A stretch of DNA of 64,000 nucleotides, taken from Rhizophagus irregularis (lineage: Eukaryota; Glomeromycota; Glomeromycetes; Glomerales; Glomeraceae). Below the pieces are notes generated by a model. The model saw only the letters and a program-made list of their open reading frames with translations, ran no database searches and had not been told where the DNA came from. Shown here piece by piece: positions 1,786-64,000 of this stretch; the stretch's first letter is position 1, and every line of letters starts with the position of its first letter. The position numbers and the translations under genes were made by a program. The DNA is taken from assembly GCF_026210795.1 (NCBI RefSeq), contig NC_089443.1, positions 1,984,001 to 2,048,000 on the forward strand, in the 5' to 3' direction.

Positions 1786-3723
1786 TTACTCATCAATCCT
1801 AGAATTGATCTTTTCTCTCCAATATTTTCCTTTGTAACTAACAACAAATAAACAAACCACACCAATAAAAGAAACGCAAATCATGATGGTATAAATCAAA
1901 CCAATACCAACAGCTTCTTCAAAAGGTACAGATATAAAAGTAAATAATGTGGCTGCGAACGATCTCGTAAGGTTATTAATTGCAACTGCTGATGCACTTC
2001 TACCTGGAAAAGCATCGACTAAATATGTTGAAACTGAATTAAACACTGTTATAAAACTAAATGCTCCTATTAAATAAGAGTTATAATTTTTTAATCGAAT
2101 TAATTAAAAAAAAATTAAAAGTTAGAGAAACATTGATTTTGTACGTACCAGTGAACATAGCGATAATTGGTAAGGCTATATGTAATCTAGCTTCAAGAAA
2201 CCACCCATAACATACATAAGAAACCGAAATAAAAAAACAACCAATCCAAACACTATGAAGTCTCATTTCAGGATATCCAACACCATTGTTTCTTTTTTTA
2301 GCTTCCATAAGAACATAATCTGACCATTTTCCTCCTATGATACTTCCAATCATATATCCAGTAGCCGGAGCCAAAAAAATTAATCCAACTGTTGATGCTG
2401 AAACATGATATATATCTGCGAAACTTAGCTCAGCTAATGTATTTTGTATATAAATTACTGCACACGTAATACTTATGTATACTATTACAAGTGACATATT
2501 AGGATATTTTAATAAACGTAATGGTGATGTAGGATCAAATCTTTTACGGTGTCGTGAATTTGAAGTTGTATTATTAGGGTTTGGTAAATTTGTAGGAGGT
2601 GCAAATGTTTCAGGAAGTGCAAAGAAAATTAATATTAATATTAAACCTCCAATAACCGCAAGAATCCATAAAATCCATCTCCATCCTAAATAATCTGTTA
2701 CATATCCCCCGATCACTGGTCCTATAACTGTTCCAACCAAAGGTCCAAGATAAAAAATTCCATACGCTTGTCCTCGTTCTAAAAATATAATTAATATATA
2801 TTATTTGTATTTTATACATTTAATTCTTACAATATAATATTAACCTACCAAATGAATGAAAAATATCACCTATTGTTCCGGCACCAATGCTGCAATCATA
2901 AAAATATAGGTAAAGATAAATTTGTTAATATAAATGTCGTAATGAAAGAAACATACCTCAGAACTGCAGAAGCACCACAAGCTTGAACTAATCGCATCGC
3001 TAACAATAACCAAATGCTATTTGATAAACCACATATTGCAGTTCCTATAATATATATTATAAAGGAAGCCAAGTAAACATTACGTCTCGTATAAAACACA
3101 TCAGAATAAGCTGCCCATCCTAGTGGCTGTGCCATAATAATACAAATTTAAAAAGTTAAAAAAAGACTTTTATAATTTATCTAATAATATATTTATACTT
3201 ACTGCCACGCCCATGAAGAAAACATTAACGCCAACTGTATGTAATTATCAAAAATAAATTAATAAAAACACTTCTAAATATGATAATTTTTGAATTCATT
3301 CATTGATATCTTACTTATTCCATTAGCCAGCACTCTGCTAGTTTTTAAATCGTTTTCAATATTGGTAATTGACGGATAAAATATTCTAAATATAAAAAAG
3401 TTGAATATATTTATTTATTTTAAATCCCATTCGTAAAATAAATATTTCACGTACGTGCTTGAAAGTGGTGCAACCATTCCAGCTAAAGAAATAATAAATA
3501 AAATAAAATTTTTCTTTTTTCTCGGCCAATATTTTGGGTCATTCGGATCTTCTATCGTTTCTTTTGGTATTTCAGAGTTAACCGATAATTGGTCGGCAAG
3601 TTTTTTATCACCTTTTTCTATATTATTACTATTATGTAAGGTTAATTCAATATCATTCGTATTTGATTCGTCGTTGTTGGTGGATATAGACGATCTAATA
3701 CTTGTATTATTCTGTTTTTCCAT
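1786..3723 (-). CDS. MFS transporter, DHA1/QDR-like (left copy)
   Basis: This is a seven-exon gene: 3455-3723, 3315-3385, 3203-3234, 2957-3126, 2849-2889, 2149-2778 and 1786-2066. All introns are GT-AG and the joined frame is 1494 nt (497 aa) with no stop. The N-terminal 65 residues are hydrophilic and Ser/Asn/Glu-rich (cytosolic tail). Hydrophobic segments follow, with the loop-2/3 signature PLGWAAYSDVFYTRRNVYL (a variant of the MFS GxxSDrxGRR motif) and the motif-C-like LGPLVGTVIGPVIGGY. This arrangement matches fungal drug:H+ antiporters of the DHA1 type (AQR1/QDR/DTR1 relatives), normally 12-helix plasma-membrane exporters. The substrate cannot be read from sequence. It is a near-identical paralogue of the gene at 14231-16180. 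The start is the ATG giving the shared N-terminus METQ/MEKQ. Confidence 0.85.
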
Positions 3724-4251
3724 TTTTTAAAATTTTAAATTGACACACCCTCCTTATAAATACTTTTCTTACCAACGTTCATTCATTTGAGTCCGGAACT
3801 TGCCGAATACAACTCATTTTCGTAGCACGACATTTAAGTAATTATTTTTTTGTCGATTTGAACATAAAAGGTTAAAAGAAAAGAAAAGTTCAATTAAGCT
3901 AGTACTATTGAAGCTAGTTTTAAACTTTTTTGCCTTAAGGTTCATCCGAGAATATAATGAAGAATAGCTTTTTTTACAAGGTTTAACCATTGTTTTCACT
4001 ATTGATTTAATTGGTTATTAAAAAAAAAAAAATTTTTTTAAATATTCATAAATTTTACTTCATCATGGAATTCTATCCAGCGTTGTTGGCATTAAAAAAA
4101 ATATGCAAAATTGAAAGCTATATTAGGAATTGTGCAACATTAAATTACTGAATTTGGGGATGTTCTAACTTCGGACAAAATTGTTTTTTTTGAAAAAAAA
4201 AAATTTCCCCACATATATACAACCTATTCAAACATATATTTGGTGCATTTA

Positions 4252-4437
4252 AGCCTGCTCTGCAAGTTTACTTAGAGTATAAAATGACGTTATGAATGCC
4301 GTTTTTGACTTATTTGACTTTTCATTTTTATTAAAAATTTATTTATCCATTTGCCAAAATCCGTTTGCTCATATGTAAAGTCAAAAACAGTATTCAAAAT
4401 CTACCTTTTTTTCTTAAGTAAACTTGCAGAGCAGGCT
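4252..4437. mobile_element. 186-bp MITE inside left arm
   Basis: A 23-bp perfect terminal inverted repeat (4252-4274 and 4415-4437, beginning AGCCTGCTCTGCAAG) bounds an AT-rich core without coding capacity. The corresponding place in the right arm (around 13750-13765) lacks it, so it inserted after the duplication or was lost there. Confidence 0.7.
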
Positions 4438-4969
4438 AAAATACGCTTATTTTATGGTTTTAAGTTTATATCATAGATGACCCGCCGGCTTGATTTCAAA
4501 ATATAATCAGTTTCCTGGTTAAACACACCCAGATCGGCATTTCTATCTTTATTATGCAATTATGCATTGTATTTAATCAACTAAATAATTCACCGGTATG
4601 AGTATATAAAATAAAGTTGTTTTGTTTATTAAAATGTAAATATAATATTTTAAATATATAATTGGAGATATCCACCGTATACGAAGTTTTTAAAAAGTTG
4701 CTACGTATGTAACAAAATACTCCTTCAAAATTTGAAGGTATAAATTCTATTTACCAGCCAAAGGGGACTGTTGAACTATGATATTCTTGTGCTAGTAGTT
4801 GATCAATTTTTTTAATCAGCCACTTACGATATATATTGCTAGTATTGCTAAATGATAACAAAAGATGGTTGATGATGTAAAGAATTAATCATGTGATAGA
4901 TAATGTCACTTCGTAGTAGACGGTAACGGCCAAATGTTATAGTACCGGCCAATTTTCATGATTAAATTG

Positions 4970-5183
4970 TTTACAGCAAAATTCGAAATATAGTGGACAC
5001 TTGAAAATTTTTATTGTCGGGATTGTCGGGTACTCGGGTTACCCGGCTAGTCGGGTTATTAGAAAAGAAAATAAATTTTACTGTAATATAACATATTCTA
5101 ATAACCCGACTAGCCGAGCAACCCGAGTCAATCCCAACAATAAAATTTTCAAGTGTCCACTATATTTCGAATTTTGCTGTAAA
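4970..5183. mobile_element. 214-bp foldback (palindromic) element
   Basis: The sequence is an almost complete palindrome. Outer arms read TTTACAGCAAAATTCG and its complement at 5168-5183. The inner arms carry a GC-richer GGGTTACCCGGCTAGTCGG block and the loop is short and AT-rich. There is no coding capacity. It would form a strong hairpin as RNA or a cruciform as DNA. It is probably a non-autonomous foldback MITE. Confidence 0.7.
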
Positions 5184-5309
5184 ATAACTTGTTTATATTC
5201 AAGATTTTGATGTCCCATTGTTTGACTAATTCGGTTATTCATCTGATTGTGATGTAAATTAAATAAATTCGGAAAAAATCAAATACCAAATTTATCGTTC
5301 TTTGAAGAA

Positions 5310-6013
5310 ATGTCTTACGAAATTATACAAGAATTGTTAATGATTTATAAAAATTACTTGAAACTGGCGAGGAACATGATGTTGTTATCTATGCCGGTCA
5401 AAATAAAAATGTTGGCATAATACGATTAATACGCGCACATTACGTACTAGATCAAAATATTTTCGTGCAGAACTATCTAAAAAAAAAAATGATGAAGAGT
5501 CATCTAAAGAAATTGTTGAAAAAAAATGACGGAAAATTTATTTTAAGAATACCTAATGTTCCTCATCGTAAATTATTAATAATCTTAAGATATAGTATTT
5601 ATTGTGGGAATATTGACTTGGAGATATTATAAAGTCTCGACACATTAACACTTTTGAAAAATATAGAAATATTTAAAATTAAATCGTTAACTTCTTGCAT
5701 TAGAGAGCACTTGACTAAAAACCAATGTGAATTTTTACTACAAAATGAGAAATTACTTAAAACAGGAGAAGGGTATGATGTTATCATCTATACTGTTCAA
5801 AATGAAAACGTTACAGACACAACTGAACGTGCGCATTCGATTATCAAAAACCCTGAGATATTATTTAATTCTTATAAGTTTGTTAGTTTAAAATCACCTA
5901 TAATAGAATTACGTTTAAAACGAGATGGTCTATTATTGGATGAAATTGATATATGGAATAGCACAACATTCTATATTTCACAAGATGTTACTGATCGCAT
6001 CTCTAAATTTTAA
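5310..6013 (+). pseudogene. BTB-BACK domain protein, broken
   Basis: Read in shifting frames, 5310-5635 gives MSYEIIQEL, then LLETGEEHDVVIYAGQNKNV, RAHYVL, SKYFRAELSKK, DGKFILRIPNV and YCGNIDL. That is the usual order of a BTB/POZ domain as found in the large BTB families of these fungi. The BACK-like region follows from 5654 as one open frame, including CIREHLTKNQCEFLLQN and PEILFNSYKFVSLKSPIIEL. At least three frame disruptions and an in-frame stop separate the BTB pieces. The C-terminal domain usual in this family (TLDc or Kelch) is absent. BTB proteins normally act as substrate adaptors for Cullin-3 ubiquitin ligases; this copy cannot make a full protein. Family call rests on motif order, not a search. 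Confidence 0.7.
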
Positions 6014-6590
6014 CAATTTATTCTCTTTTGGAATAATATACACAAATAATAAATAATTTTACTTCTAACCTTAAAAAATTAATATTTTCATGAATTTCTA
6101 AATTGCTTGCTCATTTTTATTATAAGATGAAATCATTACTTTGCAAAATATTTGATATTTCGTATCTGAAAATTAAAATGAAAACTGAAAAATTCGTTTA
6201 TGTAATTAGGTCGATTAATTGGACTGTGGACTTCATCGGGAAATTTTTTAAAGGGATATATATCGATGAAAATGTCACTGATATATATCGGACTCGTCAA
6301 GATATACCGATGTGGATAATTAGGTTATATTGACAATAATTATCAGTATCATTAAATTACGATAATTATCTTATAGTTAAAAATTGTTAAATTATTTATT
6401 GTTAAAGTGTTATGTTACTTTATTGTTAAATAACGTTAAATTATTCATTTGTTGAATATCGTTAGATTAATTAGTTGTTTTATTCAATAATAATTAATAA
6501 ATACATTATTTAAATTAATTACTCTCCATTTCCAAAACTCCAGAATCCTACAAACTTAGACTATAAGAGAAAATAAACAATTCCTGATGA
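6014..6590. other. Intergenic; one weak open frame
   Basis: An open frame at 6103-6333 (+) includes RSINWTVDFIGKFFKG but has no recognisable domain and is followed by simple TTAAA-rich repeats. I see no supported gene here. Confidence 0.3.
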
Positions 6591-6647
6591 AATAAAAAAA
6601 AATTAGTTCAGGTTTCGTCTTCAATCTTCCGAATTCAAACACGAAGC

Positions 6648-7409
6648 CTACGAAAAAAAAATAAAAAAAACGTAAATAACGTTTTAAATAAAAAACGTAA
6701 GTTTCGCAATGAAAGTTATGAAACTTACTCGTCTCTAGTATCCGAACCCTAAAATCATGGAGCCTACAAAATAGAAGAATAAACGTTAATAAACATAACG
6801 TTTACATTAAAACAAAAACAAAAAAGAAACGGTAAATTTCGCAAAGAAACTTACCGTTTCTAATCTCAAGTGCCCCCTGATCGATCTGGGACCTACAAAA
6901 AAATTATAAAAAAAAGAAACGTAAGTACGTGTTTCATTTAAAAAACAAAAAAAAAAGGGAAGTTTCATAAATTTCGTAACTGAACTTACCTGTTTCAAAA
7001 CTCTAACGTTTATAATCGATACCTACAAAAAAAATAATAAACGAAACGTTAAAAACGTTTCTATTAATAAAAAAACCAAAATATAAAGTTTCGCAACTAA
7101 AAGTTGCGAAACTTACCGAAACTAAATGCGTTTATTAAAAAAAAATAATAAAAAAATATTCAAAGTTTCAGTTTGAAACGAAACTTACCATTTCGAAATT
7201 TCAAAATTTACCATTTGACCTACAAAAAGAGAGAAACGAATAATGTTTCTTATAAAAAAAATAAATAAAAAATAAAGTTTCGCAGCACTTACCATTCGAG
7301 ATTTATCACTTCAAAGTTCCCAACTTGAACTACAAAAAAAGAAAAGAAACGTTAGAATGTTTCTTATAAAAAAAAATAGAAAAGATTAAGTTTGCAACGT
7401 GAAACTTAC
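6648..7409 (-). repeat. Array of short intron-like units with micro-exons
   Basis: On the minus strand at least six units have a consensus 5' splice site (GTAAGT) and a T-rich TTTGTAG or similar 3' end. Predicted introns are 7330-7409 (80 nt), 7220-7292 (73), 7023-7116 (94), 6893-6989 (97), 6764-6854 (91) and 6648-6728 (81). Exons between them are 31-38 nt (7293-7329, 7189-7219, 6990-7022, 6855-6892, 6729-6763). A further degenerate unit sits at 7122-7188. Intron ends are alike: GTAAGTTTC near the 5' site is complemented by GCGAAACTTAC a few bases on, and GAAACGTT...AACGTTTC lies near the 3' end. Exons share little. Joined exons do not give a long open frame, so a protein product is not supported. 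Confidence 0.6.
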
Positions 7410-7974
7410 CGTTCAAAATTTACCGTTTCGACGTACACGTATCCCTTTCTTACAAAAAGAGATAAGAAATGTGCAGTAATTCGTACGATATTTTAGAATG
7501 GTAGGCCATAGATTAGGAGAATTTGCTCCTATTCGAAAAGTTGGCTGGAGTTCATTAATTTTTACTGATTAAATTGTAAAGAATTATACGAAGTACAAAA
7601 AAAAAGATAGAGGCGGTTTCTAGAGATAAATAATCATAAATCTAACTCTTAGACGTTATTTTGTTAAATAACTTACTAATCTTCGATTATTGGTTGGAAT
7701 AAAGTTTATACAGTCAAACCTATATGAAATTTTTAGTTATATCTTTTACTCCTATAATTATCATCTCCGTTTAAAAGTGCTATCATAGGTCTAGATCAAT
7801 ATATTATTAGTCATGATGTCAGATGTCACAGAGTCGCAACTGATATTGATAAATTGCGCAATACATCTCTGAGTTACTCATATTTTGAATAACTTTTATA
7901 ACTTTTTGTAATAGTTACGTAATTTTGCGTATACCCACTGATTATGTTTTTCTATAAATAAACCACATTTTGCG
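7410..7974. other. Intergenic stretch
   Basis: AT-rich sequence with no ORF, no obvious repeat and no RNA gene that I can support. Confidence 0.5.
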
Positions 7975-8410
7975 AGATATCTATCTCTATCGTTTTTTTT
8001 ATAATATCTCTCTCATTTTTTTTTATAATATCTCTCGCGTTTTTTAATATCTCTCTCGTATTTTCTTTTTATATATATCTCTTTTTTTTATAATATCTCA
8101 CTCGTTTTTTATAGTATCTCTCGCGTTTTTTAATATCTCTCTCGTATTTTCTTTTATATATATCTCTTTTTTTTATAATATCTCACTCGTTTTTTTATAA
8201 TATCTCTCGCGTTTTTTAATATCTCTCTTTTTTTTTATAACGAAGTTTTTTACAACGTTTTATAACGACGTTTTTTTTGTTTTTTTTTATATCTCTCGCG
8301 TTTTTTAATATCTCACGTATTTTTTTAATGACGTTTTTTACAACGTTTTATAATGACATTTTTTTATAACGTTGTTTTATAACGACGTTTTATATATATA
8401 TTTTTTTTAT
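7975..8410. repeat. Degenerate TATCTCTC(T/G)CG minisatellite
   Basis: About ten variants of TATCTCTCTCG / TATCTCTCGCG spaced by T-rich spacers (TTTTTTATAA), changing to ACGACGTTTTTTATAACG variants near 8240-8400. It shows strong strand bias (pyrimidine-rich). Confidence 0.65.
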
Positions 8411-8411
8411 A

Positions 8412-8625
8412 ACGAGGTATCTCTCTCGTACAAAAAGAGTTTGTTTTGCAGTTTTATTAGTAAAAACGCCCATTTCCTGACGATGTCTAGGTTTTACATC
8501 TGGTCGTCACGCGTAACGAGGTATCTCTCTCGTACAAAAGGAGTTTGTTTTGCAGTTTTATTAGCAAAAACGCCCATTATTTCTGGTGATGTCTAGGTTT
8601 TACATCTGGTCACCAGTATAATGAA
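8412..8625. repeat. Two tandem ~105-bp copies with a hairpin end
   Basis: Copies start with AACGAGGTATCTCTCTCG (8412 and 8516). Each ends with an ATGT-CTAGGTTTT-ACAT hairpin flanked by pairing arms. A third, truncated copy of the hairpin part is at about 8950-8990, between two direct copies of TTC(G/A)ATTCTAGTC. Confidence 0.7.
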
Positions 8626-9180
8626 GATGGTTGAACTTTCTAGACCATTGTATAATATGATATACATAATGTGACTGTAGACGACCTTGGTTTATTGGAA
8701 ACGTGATAAACCCATAGCATATGCCCCTGTCTCCCGGCTGGTCAGCCATAGCATCCCTCTGAGTTTGCCGATTGGTGTTTGAGGTCATAACTCTAGAGTT
8801 CTTCCATATTTTAAGGTGTTTCTCTTCTTTTTCTGTTTCTTTTCTTTCTCCTATGTGTTTAAAAGATTAAGCAAACAGAATTTTTTTAAAATCTTATCCT
8901 GGTGGAGAGCATGACTATGCTTTGACTAGTTCGATTCTAGTCTAAGATCTTGACGCCCATATTCCTGACAATGTCTAGGTTTTACATCTAGTTCAATTCT
9001 AGTCCAAGATCTTGACAATCGTATTTTAATTTTTTTTGGGGAAAATTTTTTTAGGGGATGAATATTATCAATTATCACTTTATCGAAATTTATCTCATGA
9101 TGATTAATTATGATAATTATCAATATCGTTAATTAACATGATAAATTCCAATGTATAACATTAAAATATAAATGTATAGA

Positions 9181-9318
9181 ATCCTCGTAAAATAATTTTA
9201 TCCGTAATTTCTATAAAAATTCCGTTAATTTCCTTGTTTTAAGAATATAAATTCCTTGAATATGATACATTTACGGAAATAACATGGAATAAAAAACAGA
9301 ATAAATTTTTATAAGGGA
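9181..9318. mobile_element. Degenerate MITE, related to 19132-19262
   Basis: The two sequences share an internal block (TTCCGT, AATGATACAT-type, TTTACGG/TTCACGG, AACATGGAA) and matching inverted ends (CCTCGTAAAATAATTTT against AAATTTTTATAAGGG). This copy is the more decayed of the two. Confidence 0.5.
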
Positions 9319-9319
9319 G

Positions 9320-9676
9320 ATGGTAAATTTAGCAATAAATCGACAGTCTTTTAAGTGCCCATACGGATATCATTGTTGTTATGACATCTACGGCGGCAGT
9401 TGTTGTCTTCGCTCCAACATATTAACGAAAGTTTGTATACTTACTTACCTTTACGCCAACGCCTGGACTATTTTCGTGCAGACATTAAAATTTTATTTCT
9501 TTTTATTTATTAGTCAAATAGTATATTTTTCTTTATTTTACGTTACATATTTACAATGTAGTATATATTATTTAATAAATTCGTTTGTTTATCTTATTAC
9601 TGACTTTTCTTATACGACTTGTAACTTAAATCAATTTTTTTTAATAAAGCGTCAGTTATATCTTTATATTATTTGA
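9320..9676 (+). CDS. Cys-rich ORF, hypothetical (fragment)
   Basis: The first 33 residues contain CPYGYHCCYDIYGGSCC, a spacing of paired cysteines reminiscent of granulin-like or small secreted disulfide-rich modules. After residue 45 the frame turns into Phe/Tyr/Leu-rich sequence typical of translated AT-rich DNA. The true coding part, if any, is probably a single short exon. There is no convincing signal peptide before the cysteine block. I do not recognise the gene. Confidence 0.2.
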   Translation: MVNLAINRQSFKCPYGYHCCYDIYGGSCCLRSNILTKVCILTYLYANAWTIFVQTLKFYFFLFISQIVYFSLFYVTYLQCSIYYLINSFVYLITDFSYTTCNLNQFFLIKRQLYLYII

Positions 9677-11487
9677 AAAAAAAAGAATAATTAAGTCATT
9701 TAATGTCTGTTTTGTTGTCGTTTTTTAAAATAAAGAAATTATGCTTAATTGCGATGATATGAACTACGAATTTATTTACATTTGAAATTTAATATTATTA
9801 TATTAAAAATTCATAATTTTTTTTTCGTAATTGTACTATTTCATATTAACTTTGAATTCATTAATTGGATTTTGCAATTTGTAACATCCTAATTTAGTAA
9901 TTTTGTTGAAATGATAATAATATGATCGTCAAAATAATGCATAAGGTAACATCCAAAAAAAAATCAAGGAAAAGAAAGTTAGTTACAATTTTCGCACTAA
10001 TTGTATATGTAATACAACTAAACTAGTAAAGTATTGTAAAAATAAAAAAATGATGTAATAGGAAATGATGGTCTAAAATTATCATGAAACACTTTATTAA
10101 AGAGCCTGATTTAACTCTATTTAAAAAATAAAACCAAAAATGATGCATATCTTGGAAAATAAATGTCTACAGCTACAAAATACCTAAAATGAATGTTCAG
10201 CATAAGGCTGACAAAAATTAAATTATATGAAGGTGACGATAGCGTCGCCGAATTGGATTCATATACTCCAAGGACGTAATTAATTTTAAGAAACGGACTA
10301 CTTTATATCATTGATATTGAGATCAAAATCCATACAAATCTATTCAAAGAGGATTACATTTTAAGAACTTCATACCATATATAAAGAACTTTTATTATCA
10401 TGGGACGAAAAATATATTATCGTTATATATTCATTTTTTTTACAAAGCGACAATTCTTTTACGTGGTAACTAATTAATAATAATGTTAAAAAATTACAGA
10501 TTTTATTTTTAATCGATAAACTTTTACAATTAAAACAATAAAAAAAAATGTGGCAACTCGATTTTCAGACGATACAAAATATAATTTTTAGTTTCATATT
10601 CTAAAATTCTGATTTCTGAAATTTTTATATTTACAAATCTATATCAGACTATATAGTTCTTTTTATTTATTTATTTATAAATTATAACTGAAAATAATTA
10701 ACTTGTATATACTATATAAAATGGACAATACTGATCAGATTTACTAAAAAAAGTTTGTTAAACAGATTAGTTTAATCAAAGCAAAATTCAATATGAGAAG
10801 TAAGACTCATAAGTATTTTATTTAACAATTTACAGACATGTATCGGGTTGCCAATTTTTTATACCTCTAGCTCCGTAATATTGTAAATCATAGCCATTGT
10901 TTTAAAAATAATTTTGTATTCTTGGTAGAAAAGAAAGCTTTCACGTGATTTCGGATAATAAATCTCATGTCGATCTTCCATTTTGATGCACGATATGTGG
11001 CATAATTTTTGTTTTTTTATTTGATTATTCAAGCCAAACAAAACAAAGTCTGTAAAGAGTGTCATGCTACTTGCCGAGATAATATAAAGGAAATAATAAG
11101 ATATACATATAAAAAATGTAATTTTTAATTTTTTATTGATGTAATGTAAATATTAATTAAGAATTATTAGAAGAATCACGTAACAAACCAAAAGGCATTT
11201 ATGGTTAAATATGTTTGTTAAATTTTAACTCATTGGAAAAAATGAATAATGATATAGTATATATATATATATATATATGTAGAACTATGCCGAGAACTTG
11301 GAAAGATTTTAATAAGAATACAAGGTATTAGGAATAGTGGTATTAAATTTTCAGAAACGTTTGACAATTGAGATGTATAGTATGAGTTTATTTGAAATTG
11401 TTATTTTGTTACAATGGTCGAAATACACCAAAAATCATTATCCGAAATCACGTGTAACCCGATGTGTGCGATCTTTATATATCAATT
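9677..11487. other. Gene-poor AT-rich stretch
   Basis: I see no supported gene. An 18-bp inverted repeat, CACGTGATTTCGGATAAT, occurs near 10943 and its complement near 11438. It may mark the ends of an eroded element. Confidence 0.4.
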
Positions 11488-11658
11488 TACAACTTTTGTA
11501 ATAGACCGGGCAGGGCGATCCCCTCAGGGATCGGGACATCGGGTTGTTACTTAGACTTGCGTAGCTTAGTATAACATTTGTAAAGAGATCGGCTCCTAAA
11601 TTTGTAATGCCCGTCACTGTCTTTATGTTAAAAATAAATAAAATACAACTTTTGTAAT
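11488..11658 (+). mobile_element. Retroposed short element with 15-bp target duplication
   Basis: The direct repeat TACAACTTTTGTAAT is at 11488-11502 and again at 11644-11658. The 141-bp insert between them begins in a GC-rich block (GACCGGGCAGGGCGATCCC), unlike the AT-rich surroundings, and ends in an A-rich tail (AAAAATAAATAAA). Variable-length TSD plus A-rich tail is the mark of target-primed reverse transcription. It is either a SINE or a 5'-truncated LINE 3' end; no tRNA-type A/B box pair with proper spacing was found. Confidence 0.75.
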
Positions 11659-33033: not shown

Positions 33034-35698
33034 TCATTGTTCTTTGCAATTCTTTTGATAATGCCCAACTTTCCCACATTTTTTACATCGACGTTGTGTT
33101 TTTGTTTTAGAACTAGATATTTCACATGATGACTTAAACCTTTTCGTACCCAATGGTCTCCCTTTTCCACGCCGTTTCTTTGGATTCTGTAACAATGGTA
33201 TTGATGGATCGAAATTCTCCTTGTCACTTGTGTCATCATATTGATAAAATTCTTCAGAGTCCGTTTCATCATCATCATTTTTATCATCCGCAAATTCTTG
33301 TAGTAAACTGATAAGCTGTTCCGATTTAGAAGTTGTTTGTAAAGCCTTATTTAAGGCTTTCTTATATACACCATGTAATTTACCATAAACAATTCTTTGT
33401 TCAAGAACTGTTAATCTTTCCTCACAATAATCATTATTGTTTTGATCAAATAAACATAAACTTGATACAAATTCGTCGGTATTATATTCAATCTGTTGAT
33501 TGTCTTGTAAAAACTTATCAGCAGTTATAAATGATTCTTGTACAGCATTTCTGTCTTCATTATACCATCGCGTTGGAATAAATCTAATATGAAAAACTGC
33601 TTCTTTTGTAGTTAACATCACTTGAAAATAATGTCTGCATATAATACCACTCTGTACAATTGAAAGACAAGAACAAATATATCCCCAATTTTGTAATAAT
33701 AAAATGTAATGCTTGATCTTTGACGAATTACCAACACTGACAGCCCAAATTTCTTTAACATTATTTAGACCAACATAACTTATTATTTGTTTTAAAGTAG
33801 CCTGTGGAAGATCAATTTCTGATGCTTCATCAGAATTTTTAGTTAATAATTCTTCTTCCATTACTTCACAATTTCGTTCAACCAGCATTGCTACATAATA
33901 TAGTGATTGGTTCATCTCATCACGATGCATTTTTAACATTGTAGGAGTAAGATAATGTTGAAGAATTTGATCGATTTTAGAAAATAAAAAGTTTGAATTT
34001 TTCTGATGTCGTATGGTAGGAATCGATAAACGCCAGAAATTATATTCATTTTCCTTGTCTTGCAAATCAAGTAGTCTTTGAATTTCAGCTACAAGATCGC
34101 ATAATGGTATGTTGGAATTGTGCAATAATCGTTTTAAACAGCCATTTACAGATTCAACTCTAGAACTGGCTATCATTCCTCCTGTAAACTTGAATTTAGT
34201 ATAACAATGAGCCCAATACATTTTTGTTTTATAAATAAATTCCAGATATGTTTTAGCATTAGGATAATTTTGTAAAAGGTTGTTGAACCATTGCTCAAAA
34301 ACATTTTCCACAATACAATTTCTACAACTATAGAATGCTGTTAGGAATGCTTGATAATCATTGCCTAGCAATTTTCTGAGATTTTTATGTAAATTTTGTG
34401 TAATATGGTATGCACAGTGAATAGGATAACTTGATGGAAGGGTTTGTCGAATAGCTGCATCAACAGCTGGATCAGAATCAGTTATTATAACAATTGGCTG
34501 CATACCAGTTGATTTCGTTAATTGGGTAAACATCCAAACATGAGATTCGAAACTTTCATCTAGTAGAAGAGCTTGCGCAAGTAAAACATTACGTCTATCA
34601 TTATTAAAACCAACAACTAATGATAAGGCCATGCCGTATCTGTTTGTCTTATGAGTAATATCATTTATGACACAATCAGAATAACGTACCCAATTTTCTA
34701 CTTGAACTGGAGTCATCCAGAATAAATATGTTAATGTATTATCATCGTCCCATCCCCGAACCACAACCCATCGAGAATCTTTTTCTTTTTCATTATCAAG
34801 CCAATTAGAAATTTGAGCAGCATCATTTGACAAAGATTTGCTATTTGGGCGAAACTTTTTAATAGTAGCATAAAGATCCTTCGAAAATATAGGGTGTGAA
34901 GGAAATTTCCCTTCAAGAAACTTTCGTTGAGATGTAGCACCAAACTTGCAGTGAATGGTCATAAACTTAATGTCTTCAATCATTTCCATAGTAAATTTCT
35001 TTGATTCCTCAAATTCAATAATTGACCTATTTAATGGATGATTATGATCTTCATTGATTTTATTTATAGACACCAGACCTTCGGGATTTTTGTTTTTTGG
35101 ACATGAAACATTAATGGAAAAGGGACAATTTAATTTCTTTGTAGCAGTATTTCTTGATGAATTTGATTCATAAGTACGTCCATGAGAGCAGATAAATGTT
35201 CTTCGACGAATAACACCATCATCACGAGTGACACGATCTTTTATTTATTAAATGAAAGCCTTGTTGTTTTGCCCATTCATTTAAAAACATTTCACATTCA
35301 TCCCACGAAGTAAATTTCTTTCCTGAAAACAAAGCTGAATCACTATTTTCATTAAGCAATAGTAATCTATCAATACCTATTATATAATCGCAAAATAAAC
35401 AATAAAAATTTTAGTAAATATGACGAAATCTTAACACTAAACTGTAACCCTCTCTAACCCAAACCCTAACCCTAACTAATCCTAACCCTAACCCTAACCA
35501 GACCAACCAGACCCTAACCCTAATCCTAACCAGACCCTAACCCTAACCCTAACCCTAATCCTAACTCTAATACTAACATGAATTCAAAACAACATATTTC
35601 ATAGCAAAGATACCTGCAGCTGCTAATAAGTTTGATGATTCATCAGTATCGCCAGTACTGTCAGTAGCGTCAGTATAAGCTCGTTCATTTACATTCAT
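33034..35698 (-). pseudogene. MULE transposase (FAR1 / DDE / SWIM / zinc knuckle), one frameshift
   Basis: Exon 1 is 35614-35698 (starts MNVNERAYTD) and exon 2 is 33034-35376. The exon 2 N-terminus is FAR1-like (FTSWDECEMFLNEWAKQQG, then RRRTFICSHGRTYESNS). Next come the DDE transposase core (VINDITHKTNRYGMALSLV; IVIITDSDPAVDAAI; HCAYHITQN), a SWIM-type finger (CSCLSIVQSGIICRHYF) and an AT-hook-like KKRRGKGRPLGTKR. The end is a CCHC zinc knuckle (CKKCGKVGHYQKNC). At 35239-35242, a run of four T (AAAA on the coding strand), the FAR1 region and the rest are in different frames. One extra base here breaks the product, unless it is a sequencing error or the 679-aa downstream frame alone is used. 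Otherwise the core is open and appears recently active. Confidence 0.85.
35446..35576. repeat. Interstitial telomere-type repeats (CCCTAA)n
   Basis: About 18 perfect or near-perfect CCCTAA units, interspersed with TAACCAGACC and CTAATCC variants. They lie inside the transposase intron (35377-35613), where the sense strand reads TTAGGG. Confidence 0.9.
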
Positions 35699-48818: not shown

Positions 48819-49318
48819 AATTAATTTTTATTAATGAATTCGTAAATAAACATTTTTAGCGTAAATTTTTATATTTTAGTAATAAATAGAATTTTTTTGA
48901 GCTTTTGCTTTTATATATAAAGAGCAGATAAAATATTTTTTTGCGCATATCCTTTTAAATTTGAATAAGCGGTAAATGCACTGGCCGTCATCTGAATCAC
49001 GTATTGGACCAATAATGTAGCTCGAACGCACAACATATTTTTCCGACGTATAAAATATTTATTTAACGATATGTCTATTTTAAAATTTATAATATAATAA
49101 ATATAATAATATAAAATATTCAAAAAAAATATATTAGACCATAATATAAACCATCATGTGTATCATGTGTACCATGTGATAAATTATTAATGACTGCCGC
49201 GGTCCAATTAAGAACTACAAATCTTTTTTTCTAACGAAACTTCCCCTTTCCGTCTTTTCTCTTTTACCCACTGTAAAAAAAAAAAAAATGAATAGTATCC
49301 ACTTGGCCATCTAAAAAA
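48819..49318. other. Intergenic stretch
   Basis: AT-rich; no supported gene. A short less AT-rich segment at 48955-49040 shows no RNA-gene signature that I can support. Confidence 0.4.
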
Positions 49319-49616
49319 GTACGTAATGATTAGTTTATTTCTTTTCGTATTCATTACTAACTTTTGCCTTTTGTTTTTATAGGGTTCAACTTCTTAATCA
49401 TTTAATGAAAGTTTCATTCTTTTCTTTTTTCAAACGCGTGGAATTTGGTAAGAATTCAGATAATTTTTTTAATACATTCTTTTAATGAAATGTTAGAAAC
49501 GTTTCATTCATTTTTTTTGAGCAGGCCCGGATTCCGGAGAGTGGATTTCTGGTAGGAATTCTCTTTGGGGCATTTTTTTTTACAAAATGGGACCAATGTT
49601 TCATTTTACCTTTTAG
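49319..49616 (+). repeat. Second cluster of short intron-like units (plus strand)
   Basis: Predicted introns are 49319-49382 (GTACGTAATG to TTTTATAG), 49448-49524 (GTAAGAATTC to TTTGAGCAG) and 49552-49616 (GTAGGAATTC to CCTTTTAG). They separate a 65-nt and a 27-nt exon (49383-49447, 49525-49551). The middle intron contains an inverted pair AATGAAATG ... CGTTTCATT near its 3' side. A further TTTTTCAG|GTGGGACTTCTG acceptor-like site lies near 49783. A coding product is not evident. Confidence 0.45.
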
Positions 49617-51010
49617 TTAGATCATGTTGATGCTACTTTGGATCTTTGGAAGCATAGGACTTCGTAGAAGAATCCGAAGAATTAGTTTTTTCATTAATTT
49701 TTCGAAGTACCAGCCCCCAATTTTTGGATGTTAAGAGTAGTAAATTTCAAAGATATCAAAATAAAAAAAAAATGGTCTTTTTCAGGTGGGACTTCTGAAA
49801 AATGAAAATCCTATATATAAATGAATCCTCAAATTTTCACATTTTTACATACGTATAATTTTAAGAGCAATTAATAGGTATGGAATATTTAGAATATTTG
49901 GAGAGAACGTAATTAATTTATGTGTATTATCTTAAAGGATATACAATATATGATATTGCTTCGATACTTAATTACATATTTACTAAATTTAACAACGTAT
50001 TAAAAAATTTTAACAATATATTTATTAAATTTTATTACTAAATTTTATCGAGATGGTTAAAAAATTGTAAACGACTTTGATAATAAATTCGTGACGATTT
50101 ATTGAAAAATTAATCTGCAAGCGTCTTAATGTGCAGTAACTGCATGTACGTTTCAGCAAGGTAGTTTTGTCAAATAGTTTACTCCTATGGCCCTACCCAA
50201 TTTAGCATCGATTTACCGATCTAAATTTAACTTTCCCTTTTTAATAATTAACTTACAGGGTGATTTGATAGTTAAATAAGTTATGTTTATTAGAACGGAT
50301 TCGATTTAAAACTCTTCGTCCTCATCTTAATAATTTATACTTTACGTGCTTTTTTTTATAAACGTAATATAGTATTTAATAATAAAAACACAAATATTGC
50401 GCTATTTTCTAAAAAAAATCTATTATACCATTATACCATTACTTATTATCAATATTAGATATTATTAAATCGAATTCTATTTTAAGTAATTTATGTAAAT
50501 TATGAATCTTTGATCTAATAAAGGATGTACTAAGAATAAACGCAACAAACACCTAAAAAAAATAAGTCGTAAAAAGCATCAAAAATTTTGAATACATATC
50601 TTTTATTTATTTCATTTGCCGTTAACGTAAGTTAACTTTATGAATCGTTATATATTCATTCTAATGTCCGGTATTTTATGTTGACAAAAAAAAACGTTGT
50701 CTATTGGCAATGAAAAAGATACAATGGAAAGATAGATGGCACGAATTGACAATTATTAGCAGCTTCAAAGATCGAATATGTTAAAGGTTGAAATATCGCC
50801 TTTATTTTAACAAACTTTGGTAATAAAAATAAAATAAGATATTTAACATATCAATCATGATGCAGATTAGATTTTATGATTTTAGATTAAAAATTAATGC
50901 ATGTAATTCATTGGCATAAAAGATATAATTTAAACAAGTAATGATTTATATAAGGTTATTACAAAGTTCAAAAAAAACGCACAGCATATACTTATACAGT
51001 ATACACGGTA
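49617..51010. other. Intergenic, includes array 3'-flank copy from ~50450
   Basis: From about 50450 the sequence again matches the kinase-unit 3' flank (AAATCGAATTCTATTTTAAG, GGCACGAATTGAC) and leads into pseudogene copy 4. The earlier part shows nothing that I can name. Confidence 0.5.
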
Positions 51011-59561: not shown

Positions 59562-60238
59562 TATACTATATACTATATATATATTAAATAACATAATTTT
59601 AGTCACATTTTATTTAATCAACTAATTTATTGGAGCCAAATTTTATGGTTATCCAAAAAAAAAGATAAAACTGGTAGAAGTACCAAGTATACTTGATTTA
59701 AAATATTTTACATATTTCTCGTTAAATTTATAATTATTAAATATTACAGAATATTTTATCTACGTGTCAAAATGTTTGACCAAAAGAGATTATAATAGAA
59801 TTAATAATCCTAAAATAGGTGGAATATAGATTATATAGATAATTGGTCCAATTATCTATCTACTGAAATTTTCCCCCATTCGTCTTGTCCATCTAATTCC
59901 ATTGTCATCATGAGCATTTCATATTATAGATATTATAATTTAAATTTTTATTAAAATGTTTTACACAAAACGTAGTGGAAACAGTGGCAACAAGTTTCGT
60001 TTTAAAAACATGATTGTACTATATTTCTCATATTTCTCATTAAATTTATATATTTATTATAAAGCCTTTATCACCCAATTTTATTTTTACATCGGTTAAA
60101 ATTGTTGCAAAGCATTTGTCTTTTAACTTAATATTCTTGGAGTTACTACTAATTTGTTACGTCCCAAGCTTCAGATCTGTATTTACGTCACGTTTATCAA
60201 TTCCCAAAGCTCCTATAATATTACTAGAAGGAAGGTTC

Positions 60239-60487
60239 CTACAAAGAAAAAACCCAAAGAAATTTAACGTTAGTAATGTTTACTAACGTTAAAAGAAGTA
60301 ACCTCACCTTCCATTTGCGTTCTAAAGTGTCTAGGGGACTCTTACAAAAAAATAAAAATAAAAATAAAGGAACGTTAATAATGGTTTAATGTTTATTAAC
60401 ATTCCTAAACAAAAAAAAAAATTTTAGTTCTTACAATTCTAAAGTCCAGTTCCAAGAAGCTGAAGTCTAGGTCCAGAAAGACATTCC
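60239..60487 (-). repeat. Third cluster of short intron-like units (minus strand)
   Basis: On the minus strand: intron 60239-60307 (GTGAGGTTAC to CTTTGTAG, 69 nt), preceded by a 33-nt exon (60308-60340) and intron 60341-60434 (GTAAGAACT to TTTTTGTAAG), and preceded by a 52-nt exon (60435-60486) with acceptor CTTTAG at 60487. Introns contain AACGTTAGTAA ... TTACTAACGTT-type hairpins, as in the 6648-7409 array. A coding product is not evident. Confidence 0.5.
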
Positions 60488-60559
60488 TAAAGAAAAGGAA
60501 CGTCAGTAACGTTCCAAAACAAAAAAAAAACTGAAAGAAAAAAAGAAACCTTCGTTTAT

Positions 60560-61787
60560 TTTAAAGGAAATGACTTTCTGATCCGAGCGCTAAGAATAAT
60601 TCGACAATTATTAAATTTAGACAAAACTATTTTTTAATTATTTTTAAAAAAACGTTTGGCTCGATAATTAGTGGTAATCAAATTATCCGGCTAAAACACT
60701 TTTTTTTAATAAAAAAAATAAAAAATCTAAAAAAAATCTTTTTAAATAACCAATTTTTATTAGTTTCGGCTATTAAATCATCCGGCCGTAACGATTGAAT
60801 TTTTAATTTTTTTTTCCAGATCCATCAGATATCACAATCCATTCATCGGATTTATCAGAATATCGCACTTCTAGTCTAGTTTACTTTATAAAAGATATTA
60901 TTAAAATAATTTTACTTCATTAAAAAATAAAACCAAATATTCATATAAATTCGACTAAATGATGTATGAACAGAAATATTCATATGAAATATGAAGTCGC
61001 TAGTAAAAAAATCTTGCGATAGTCTTGATGAAAATGAAAATTAATTAACAATTTAATTATTTTATTGCGATAGTAATCAGATAACTTTCAGAACTGTTAG
61101 CGTTTCATTACTTTTGATAGTATTTTTGGATTTTGACGTGTTTATTATTCTAATTTAAGAACAACTTAATTTTTTGCTGGAATCCCGTGCCAATTTTTTT
61201 GCAACGTTATCAAAAGTATTTAAAGTATTTGGTTAATTTGTTGATCGCCACCGCAAATATCGCGTGATTCGTCTATTTGGTGATTTTTTTTTTAACGCCA
61301 GAAATTTCAACTCTTACGAAGCGTGCTAACTGGTGGACGCAAAAAAAAAGGTTTGATCTTCATCCATTTAATATTAAAGATTTCCCGCGAAACGTTGCAA
61401 ATTTATTCGTCATATTTAAAAATATTTTAAATATTTACCATTCTAAACCCTTTCAAGATAAGGAAAAGATCTTTATCTAAGATTTTTTAAAAATAAGACA
61501 AATCATTTATTTATAAAAGCTAGTTAAAAAAAAAAAGGTCAAATTTTCCAAAAAAAACCACTGATTATTTGTTTACGTTTGAATACGATATAAATTTTTT
61601 TTTTCTTGTTAATAATATAAAATATTAATACAAATTATATAAAGATAATTAATCAAATAAAAATATACATATATTATAGACTTATATAAAAATTAATATT
61701 GGATATATACAGCATAGGGTCATAGACATTTACATAAACTCTATTAAAAACATAACTACGTAAAATTATTATAATAAATCTTATCTT
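60560..61787. other. Intergenic stretch
   Basis: An open frame at 61277-61480 (+) includes KRANWWTQKKRFDLHPFN and could be a gene scrap, but nothing supports it. The rest is AT-rich with no structured feature. Confidence 0.35.
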
Positions 61788-62300: not shown

Positions 62301-64000
62301 ACTAAAAATATTACAAATGCGATCAATTAAATTATATGAATTACTTTTTAAGTTTTTCAATCTATTCTGAGCTTCTTGATCTCCTGATTGTTCATACCAG
62401 TAAATTGCTTTATTTATATCTTTCTCAATTCCATCCCCTATTTCATACATATCACCAAGATTATTTTGAGCAACCATATCTCCTAAATCTGCTTCCAATT
62501 CCGCAACTATAACAATATCCTAATGCTCTTATTCCATCGATAAATTCTTCTTCAGCTGATTGTTTAGATAATTCAAATGCCTTGATATCATCTTTATCAG
62601 CACCATATCCATTCATATACATTATAGCAAGGTTATATTGAGCTAAACTATTTCCTAAATTTGCTGCTTTTTCATATAAATAGGGATGGGGACGGTTCCA
62701 TCGGTTCGGTTCCGGTTCTATAGAACGGCGGAACCGGTTCCGAGCAGAACCGTTCCGAAAAGTCGGTTCCGATCGGTTCGGTTCTATGGAACGGTCCGTT
62801 TCTGAGTAGAACCGTTCGAAAAGTCGGTTCCAAGCGGTTCGACTCTACGGAACGGTCCAAGAAGTTAACTAAATGCTACCCGGAAAAAAGGTTATCCGGT
62901 AAGATACATATGAACTGAACGGAACCGAACTGCTCGAGTCGAACGGTTCCGTTCTAGGAACCGAACCGGGTTCTCGGTTCTGACTCCGTTCTCGGTTCCG
63001 AACCGTGCTCGAACCGCTCAGCAGTGGAACTTTTGCATCCCTACATATAAGGAGACAGCTTTCTTTAAGTCTTTTTCAATCCCCATACCTCTTTCGTAAA
63101 AATAACCAAGATAAATTATTCCTGACGGATAATTCTTATTAGCTACTTTTTCATAAAATTCAAAAGCTAACTTTTCATTTTCTTCGGTTCCATAACCAAA
63201 TTCGTAACATAATCCAACATAAAACTGAGCCAATGTATGATCTTGCTCTGATGCTTTAATAAATAGATCGAACGCTTGAATTAGATTTCCACTAGTTTCA
63301 ATTCCTACGTAATTAAAATATCCAAGTAAGAAAATTGAATCCAAATCATCTTGATTATTTAACAACCAATTATAAATTTCTTGCGATTTTACACTATGAC
63401 CATTATTAATATAATCAATAATATAATCGGTTACTTCTTTTCCTAAATTAACTAATTTAAAAATATATTCTACTATTTTTTTAATTACTATCTTTAAATT
63501 CTCTTTTGATGAAATGCTTTCATTACTAATTAATTGTTTATTTGTTGTTATAGGGATGAATTTATCTTCTTTCGTATTCGTTTTATTAAATTTTTGAATA
63601 AAATGAGACATTTCTCCATCGTATGAATTCAGGCAATTCTTATTAGCTACTTTTTCAAAAAATTCAGACGATAACTTTTCATTTTTTTCGGTTCCATAAC
63701 CAAATTCGTAACATATTCCAACATAAAATTGAGCCAATGTATGATCTTGCTCTGATGCTTTAATAAATAGATCAAACGCTTGAATTAGATTTTCACAAGT
63801 TTCAGAAAATTGAATCCAAATCATCTTGATTAATTAACAACCATTTATAAATTTCTTGCGATTTTATATTATGACTATTACTATTGAAATAATCAATGAT
63901 ATATTTGTGTGAATCATTTCCTTCATTAAATAATTTAAAGATATGTTCCACTATTTCATTAATTATTATTTTTAAATTCTTTTCGGATGAAATACTTTCT
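62301..64000 (-). pseudogene. Kinase-Sel1 gene remnant (copy 6), partial at window edge
   Basis: Only the linker and Sel1 part is in the window. From the right edge, reading leftward: a linker ([27 protein letters not shown]) ends at a deletion of about 29 bp after DSIF, shifting frame. A second copy of linker plus first Sel1 repeats follows (63044-63660). The gene is then interrupted by a hAT-type MITE (62681-63043) and continues (LAIMYMNGYGADKDD, LGYCYSCGIGS). A second deletion near 62490 fuses that repeat to the last one (ADLGDMVAQNNLGDMYEIG). Multiple breaks make it a pseudogene. The kinase domain would lie beyond 64000. Confidence 0.8.
62681..63043. mobile_element. 363-bp hAT-type MITE with 8-bp TSD
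   Basis: Inserted in a Sel1 codon block. Ends TAGGGATG and CATCCCTA are inverted repeats, and the flanks CATATAAA (62673-62680) and CATATAAG (63044-63051) form an 8-bp duplication with one change. The uninterrupted sequence is seen in copy 2 (TTTTTCATATAAAGAGAAAG, near 40828). The interior is unusually GC-rich and made of GGTTC(C/G)G / GGAACCG words. TAGGG-type ends plus an 8-bp TSD indicate the hAT superfamily. Confidence 0.85.

Follow-up and report, generated by a model that had tools for sequence, protein, structure and literature searches.

Arrays of hairpin-bearing intron-like units in the genome of Rhizophagus irregularis, many of them associated with DNA transposons

Introns that are better conserved than exons are known from small nucleolar RNA (snoRNA) host genes and other non-coding genes. 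According to the available parts of the articles cited here, introners are inserted in genes, their intron sequences having been amplified by DNA transposition, with terminal inverted repeats (TIRs) and target-site duplications (TSDs) in many families (PMC9860276); CACTA/CMC/EnSpm DNA transposons including Plavaka have been described in Rhizophagus irregularis (PMC11075540, in whose main text, as available, the word "intron" occurs 0 times); and SP7 genes of arbuscular mycorrhizal fungi encode secreted repeat proteins (PMC11333574). The window analysed here is a stretch of 64,000 nucleotides (C15:1984001-2048000, i.e., contig NC_089443.1) of the 146.7-Mb genome of this fungus (32 contigs, ~26% GC). 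On its minus strand, at 6648-7409, lies an array of intron-like units separated by micro-exons. This array is a decayed copy of a dispersed, largely intron-made repeat and, with a probability of about 0.72, belongs in decayed form to a large class of intron arrays that are non-coding and in many cases carried by transposons.

A first description of the array, henceforth called the sequence-only reading, had listed six minus-strand intron-like units of 73-97 nt with GTAAGT...TAG ends, exons of 31-38 nt between them, and introns more alike than exons, all of which was borne out by measurement (Table 1). GTAAGT forms the 5' end of all six complete introns, and the 3' ends read TTGTAG in five and TCGTAG in one. 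An additional donor at 7188 opens a seventh, truncated unit without the normal 3' part, so that six of the seven units are complete. Mean pairwise identity was 0.72 among the introns, compared with 0.62 (standard deviation (sd) 0.008) in dinucleotide shuffles, and 0.59 among the exons, compared with 0.55 (sd 0.015); the statement that the exons share no sequence held for the most part, apart from this weak leftover likeness. Strict units (GTRAGT...TTTT(T)[CG]TAG spanning 55-115 nt) numbered 5 on the minus strand of 6500-7560; in 500 dinucleotide shuffles their mean number was 0.00 and no shuffle had more than 1. The density of units is far beyond chance. A donor hairpin, ascribed earlier to most units, was clear in three (7116-7023, 6728-6648, and 6854-6764), bulged in one (7409-7330), and not predicted as such in 7292-7220 and 6989-6893, with 4 of the 7 folded intervals lying 1-14 bases off the measured splice sites. 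The second hairpin noticed near the 3' end is present and holds a CTAAC branch-point motif. The covariance model R1 found 7 units in the array (E 3e-10 to 0.024), two of which (7330-7409 and 7023-7116) are among the 56 introns from which R1 was built and match it by construction.

Genome-wide, the donor-hairpin pattern GTAAGTTTC...GAAACTT gave 1,298 matches against 10 for the reversed pattern, and the branch-point-hairpin pattern GAAACGTT...CTAACGTTTC gave 504 against 0 in the reversed control (palindromic matches were counted on both strands, also in the GCAAC/GTTGC count below), in keeping with the earlier suggestion that introns have multiplied. The loci examined (n = 58, designated by L numbers; 54 of 58 on contigs 1-4, drawn from the matches listed) were mostly chosen by a match to GTAAGTTTC...GAAACTT or to the branch-point hairpin and include paralogous copies, and counts over them are not independent. 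Each unit is an intron of ~87 nt with GT-AG ends, and micro-exons of ~35 nt join the units. Two hairpins are seen in the consensus of alignment A1 (56 introns). In hairpin 1, the 5' splice site is folded in from +3 (AAGTTTCGnnn...nnnCGAAACTT); hairpin 2 (GAAACGTT-nCT-AACGTTTC) carries the CTAAC branch-point motif on its 3' side, and a T-rich tract and TAG come after it. Units lie mostly in strand-consistent arrays (24 sense-strand model hits in L048, 23 in L053, and 17 in L050), and the opposite strand has a few weak hits, located over hairpins. No Rfam match at the gathering threshold was obtained for six array loci or the window.

Several stem types occur, and their arms change together: genome-wide, GCAAC/GTTGC was counted 68 times, GAAGC/GCTTC 79 times, and the mixed pair GCAAC/GCTTC 0 times. 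Constant arms were found in 185 of 333 introns, and the 87 distinct pairs of inner arms long enough to be used formed 3.97 contiguous pairs on average, compared with 1.80 (sd 0.16, maximum 2.32) when right arms were swapped 1,000 times. Because several stem types occur, these results argue for pairing of the inner stem having been maintained, though shared descent contributes. The first 46 nt of array introns had a median folding energy of -10.5 kcal/mol (80 sampled), and four plausible introns of the presumably kinase-like genes of the window had 0.0, -0.6, -1.3, and -1.7 kcal/mol; the control pattern caught five introns there, the fifth of which (166 nt, -3.8) starts too far upstream, and a pattern made for transporter genes, taken to be MFS genes, caught none. 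As a separate observation, the array in L030 (C2:410600-413600) comprises 19 called introns, with GTGAGT donors in 11 of the 12 printed; its exons are 73% and its introns 80% alike, and a pair of hairpins identical or almost identical to its own is found again near C1:2505333 and C1:4878306.

Sharp element edges were seen when two 90%-identical copies were compared. Seven complete relatives of the array are DNA transposons of 3.7-5.4 kb with inverted ends CACAGGTCGAA (CACAGG type) or CATCAGCAAG (CATCAG type); in all seven the TIRs bound the whole array, and in 6 of the 7 the TSDs match. Flanking repeats of 3 bp were found at 4 of the 5 CACAGG-type array elements (GAT, TTA, TAT, and TAT; L051 fails) and at an array-less element with the same ends, L049 (TAT), i.e., at 5 of 6 CACAGG elements, and repeats of 2 bp (TA and AG) at both CATCAG-type elements (L048 and L053). 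The latter, L053, sits inside a DDE_1 transposase-like frame, and its empty site (modelled as the flanks joined with one AG) exists elsewhere at 100% identity over 296 nt and at another place at 96%. No other result supports the precise and recent mobility of an array-bearing element as strongly as this empty site does.

The array-less L049 (8,303 bp, CACAGG-type ends) has transposase-like frames and no intron-model hit; a single intron called in it was rejected, having no hairpins of the array type. All five CACAGG-type array elements match L049 over their first 441-573 nt and last 488-794 nt at 82-92% identity, with no match listed for their interiors, so that the array and a C-rich leader occupy the place of the transposase-like region of L049. 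The CATCAG-type elements L048 and L053 gave no match to L049. Since the CACAGG ends are shared with an array-less element having transposase-like frames, this type probably belongs to CACTA/CMC, its array elements being non-autonomous, and is perhaps Plavaka-like. A stronger, different Transposase_21 frame next to the inserted L045 is part of another element. The C-rich leader can form a long inverted pairing with a purine-rich segment in L050 (182 nt, 73%), but this was dismissed as a general trait, being short in L052 (41 nt) and not found in L051 or L045; in array sense, the L050 segments are a C-rich tract before the array (1644-1847) and a purine-rich segment within it (3381-3563). L047 (1807-2771) and L048 (7629-8584) also contain a separate repeat of ~960 bp, which has ACAGTCAACTC...GAGTTGACTGT ends and is probably a further TIR element.

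Beyond the complete elements, CATCAGCAAGTTTTAAAC ends had 52 genome matches against 0 in the control, and 8 of these 52 CATCAG 3' termini had a marker stem no more than 4.5 kb away on the side and strand predicted for an array, where ~0.002 were expected per end; the markers were two stem types (147 hits in 84 clusters), a partial list. On contigs 1 and 2, an array lay on the expected side of 4 of 8 CACAGGTCGAACAG ends and 5 of 7 CACAGGTCGAAGG ends, as judged from a hairpin list that was a hand-picked part of the donor and branch-point hairpin matches; one of the end-pattern counts (with N{1,3} in the pattern) counts some ends more than once. Many, rather than demonstrably all, arrays are carried by transposons.

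The window copy has five dispersed relatives that were examined (L054, L055, L056, L057, and L058), with 76-92% identity over the array part. L054 matches it at 90% over 6232-7201 and at 84% over 7744-8963; AT-rich tandem repeats occupy 7977-8611. The number of units varies within this family, since 7202-7358 of the window copy is without counterpart in L054, L055, and L056, and unit number seems to change by tandem duplication and loss. The window copy could be an old representative of a third terminal type or an array whose ends have been lost, and it appears to share the history of the transposon-borne arrays.

Splice signals were found in order and on one strand. In 147 of 173 sense cases, the AG that comes first after the branch-point hairpin was part of a TAG with a pyrimidine before it, compared with 0 of 58 antisense cases; GTA or GTG preceded the donor-hairpin core in 158 of 181 sense cases, and GTA did so in 12 of 183 antisense cases. 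The donor test is favoured by the way loci were selected, the acceptor test is not. GC content was 23% in introns and 41% in micro-exons. The intron caller needs GT, AG, and a branch-point-like motif; it misses or misplaces some units, by which some exons are fused or shifted (e.g., 43 nt in L048 for an exon of 38 nt in L047). With GT-AG ends, a branch point, and a pyrimidine tract ordered on one strand, the units have the make-up of U2-type spliceosomal introns, which suggests that they are spliced.

Several results weigh against reading the array as part of a class of spliced, non-coding, transposon-carried introns. Transcription and splicing are predictions from sequence. Queries made of joined exons, exons 5-10 of 10 from L045 and 9 exons from L053, matched the genome one exon at a time and found no junction-spanning copy. 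Among recent copies, splice sites, stems, spacers, and exons change at no consistently different rates; donors and acceptors were unchanged in 2 of 6 comparisons (L047/L048 and L005/L028) and changed by 2-10% in the other four. Stop trinucleotides make up 0.046 of the exons, compared with 0.066 (sd 0.002) in base shuffles, which may hint at coding. The Transposase_21 (tnp2) match of L049 is weak (E 0.00065; 19.4 bits, below the Pfam cut-off of 28.6). Of the 52 CATCAG termini, no more than 8 show a marker stem where it is expected, and at 4 it lies on a wrong side or strand. Around the window array itself no TIR or TSD was recognised: CACAGGTCGAA occurs in the window not beyond chance, CATCAGCAAGTTTTAAAC has no match there, a CA-starting TIR pair with TSD, sought between 2500-6640 and 7410-11500, was not found, and the edges of the dispersed repeat, set by its relatives, are without TIR. 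Lastly, L038 (C1:6250000-6251500) may hold a solitary intron that has a perfect donor hairpin and is not surrounded by an array.

Solitary copies bear directly on the proposal of the sequence-only reading that the units are introner-like, i.e., single introns copying themselves into many genes. Many similar hairpin introns do occur genome-wide, introners with TIRs and TSDs are known (PMC9860276), and solitary copies may exist, as L038 may hold one. Of 14 loci that looked like singletons, 10 have at least two same-strand model hits (E <= 0.01) and are arrays, 3 have one, and 1 has none. The sequence-only reading had proposed a search for copies in unrelated host genes; none of the five weakest singleton-like loci, when read, was a clear insertion into a coding gene; a hairpin at L036, in a seemingly ordinary gene region, was set aside because the rest of the unit is missing there. 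Together with TIRs that enclose the whole array in seven complete elements and an empty site for a whole element, this makes the spread of single introns improbable, and whole elements, not single introns, appear to move.

CACTA-type elements are known for subterminal repeats. The GAAAC/GTTTC inverted motifs, short inverted repeats in tandem, could be hairpins for transposase binding or replication at the DNA level, the intron-like look being incidental. The splice signals are strand-specific and correctly ordered, and L049, which lacks an array, shares the ends and the subterminal repeats, because of which the array seems unneeded for mobility; a purely DNA-level role is given little credence.

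A protein-coding micro-exon family, decayed or living, might resemble the schistosome-type micro-exon genes, which form a coding family of micro-exons, or SP7-like effectors. Its splice signals would be ordered and its exons higher in GC with fewer stops than base shuffles, as found, and SP7-like genes of R. irregularis have repeats and a conserved intron (PMC11333574, as available). Micro-exon lengths modulo 3 were 54/76/79 among 209 exons of <=60 nt (209 of 286 kept, gaps >60 nt being left out). Ten aligned exons of L045 and L046 differ in length by -2, 0, -1, 0, -1, -1, +2, -1, -1, and 0 nt, and 3 of 10 exons differ between L047 and L048 (-1, +2, and +5, the last probably from a misplaced donor); the frame is not preserved across exons as it would be in a coding family. 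In 20 spliced runs, the longest open stretch exceeded the 95th percentile of base shuffles only in L003 and L027, of which L003 equalled and L027 exceeded the 95th percentile of exon-order shuffles. These runs offered no long open frame in which the make-up of SP7-like effectors, a signal peptide with hydrophilic repeats behind it, could be sought. Stops are rarer still on the antisense strand of the exons (0.034). The arrays look non-coding because exon lengths ignore the frame and the spliced products are mostly not open, and the decayed gene with repeated micro-exons that had been offered as an alternative, in which copies should not differ by non-multiples of three, is highly improbable.

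If the non-coding arrays are spliced, most of their length would be turned into removable introns, and RNA made from the element, or through an element in a transcribed region, would be cut to a short non-coding remnant. Local hairpins would confine each of the near-identical splice sites to the intron it belongs to, which would reduce mis-joining between units of the array. That splicing strips most of the element from RNA while hairpins limit mis-joining is doubtful as a statement of function, and the version in which the element hides in genes is weakened because leftover 35-nt exons would not restore the frame of the host. Stalled-spliceosome signalling into RNA interference has been reported in Cryptococcus. 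Arrays that act as loci for non-coding RNA and supply RNA interference with slow, masked introns would fit donor sites and branch points that both lie within hairpins, of which the former could equally slow U1 recognition, and the 40 AGO-like genes of R. irregularis (PMC11075540, as available), but hardly any chance is allowed for this, as a transposon should have little reason to retain a signal of this kind if the host gains nothing from it.

Coordinates of the window features and lengths of the complete array elements are collected in Table 1.

Table 1. Units of the window array, further intron-like features of the window, and complete array-bearing elements (positions within the window; R1, score of the covariance model; MFE, minimum free energy).
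Feature	Position	Strand	Length	Remarks
Intron 1	7330..7409	-	80 nt	GTAAGTTTC...TTTTGTAG; bulged donor hairpin, branch-point hairpin; R1 64.4 bits
Micro-exon	7293..7329	-	37 nt	
Intron 2	7220..7292	-	73 nt	weak donor hairpin; R1 42.2 bits
Micro-exon	7189..7219	-	31 nt	
Truncated unit	7122..7188	-		donor kept; branch-point hairpin and normal acceptor missing; R1 28.4 bits
Intron	7023..7116	-	94 nt	perfect donor hairpin and branch-point hairpin; R1 76.2 bits; MFE -25.2, z -5.8
Micro-exon	6990..7022	-	33 nt	
Intron	6893..6989	-	97 nt	hairpins weak; R1 43.3 bits
Micro-exon	6855..6892	-	38 nt	
Intron	6764..6854	-	91 nt	donor hairpin and branch-point-side hairpin; R1 34.1 bits
Micro-exon	6729..6763	-	35 nt	
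Intron	6648..6728	-	81 nt	donor hairpin and short branch-point-side hairpin; R1 54.2 bits
Dispersed repeat containing the window array	6232..9144	-		edges approximate, no TIR recognised; homology to L054-L058
Possible third short array or relic	49440..49620 (region 49300-49700)	+		R1 36.1 and 20.0 bits
Second, weaker intron-like array	60220..60560	-		branch-point-type hairpins (GGAACGTTACTGACGTTCC and others), weak donor hairpins
CACAGG-type array elements			L045 4,205 bp; L046 4,264 bp; L050 5,429 bp; L051 4,711 bp; L052 4,370 bp	CACAGGTCGAA ends, inverted
CATCAG-type array elements			L048 4,192 bp; L053 3,719 bp	CATCAGCAAG ends

Units like those of the second, weaker array in the window, without donor hairpins, were also seen in L041 and L044. 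Elsewhere in the window, a long open frame on the minus strand at 33034-35244 matches MULE transposase (PF10551, E 1.8e-17) and, more weakly, FAR1-like and zinc-knuckle sequences, and an interstitial telomere-like repeat of CTAACC units lies in mid-window at 35445-35570. A tandem gene family occupies the minus strand at 36815-57456, with a repeat exon present in five copies in the frame list; these are the genes taken to be kinase-like, the repeat exons being presumably of Sel1 type. GC-rich tandem repeats of 61 nt and 18 nt (CCGGTTCCG...), unusual for this AT-rich genome, are found at 62734-63011.

The arrays bear on the multiplication of introns and on the coexistence of transposons with splicing. 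If spliced, they would provide a natural test bed of >1,000 copies for the part played by local RNA structure when tiny exons are recognised, and they would open a way for intron arrays to enter genes. Some of the repeats that are unclassified in an arbuscular mycorrhizal fungus may be such arrays, and gene finders may annotate them as genes. It is tentatively suggested, at less than even odds, that they represent an undescribed kind of mobile element, i.e., DNA transposons with a cargo of dense, self-folded spliceosomal introns, in which splicing would serve the transposon by erasing its own body from RNA or by yielding intron products, and in which the selected parts would be the splice-site and branch-point hairpins and not a protein. 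A literature search found no description of such transposon-borne intron arrays, and no other case of intron arrays as cargo of cut-and-paste transposons is known to us.

Compared with the described systems, the array elements are like CACTA/CMC/EnSpm transposons in their TIRs, short TSDs, and ends shared with L049, and differ from them in an interior made of structured introns and micro-exons. With SP7-like genes they have in common the group of fungi and the combination of repeats and introns in one gene, whereas the arrays are without a clear reading frame. The likeness to snoRNA host genes lies in introns that are more conserved than exons; in the arrays, which have no Rfam match, the conserved parts are the splicing signals themselves. 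Introners, finally, bring one intron per insertion into a gene, whereas here many introns come with each insertion and the TIRs stand around the array.
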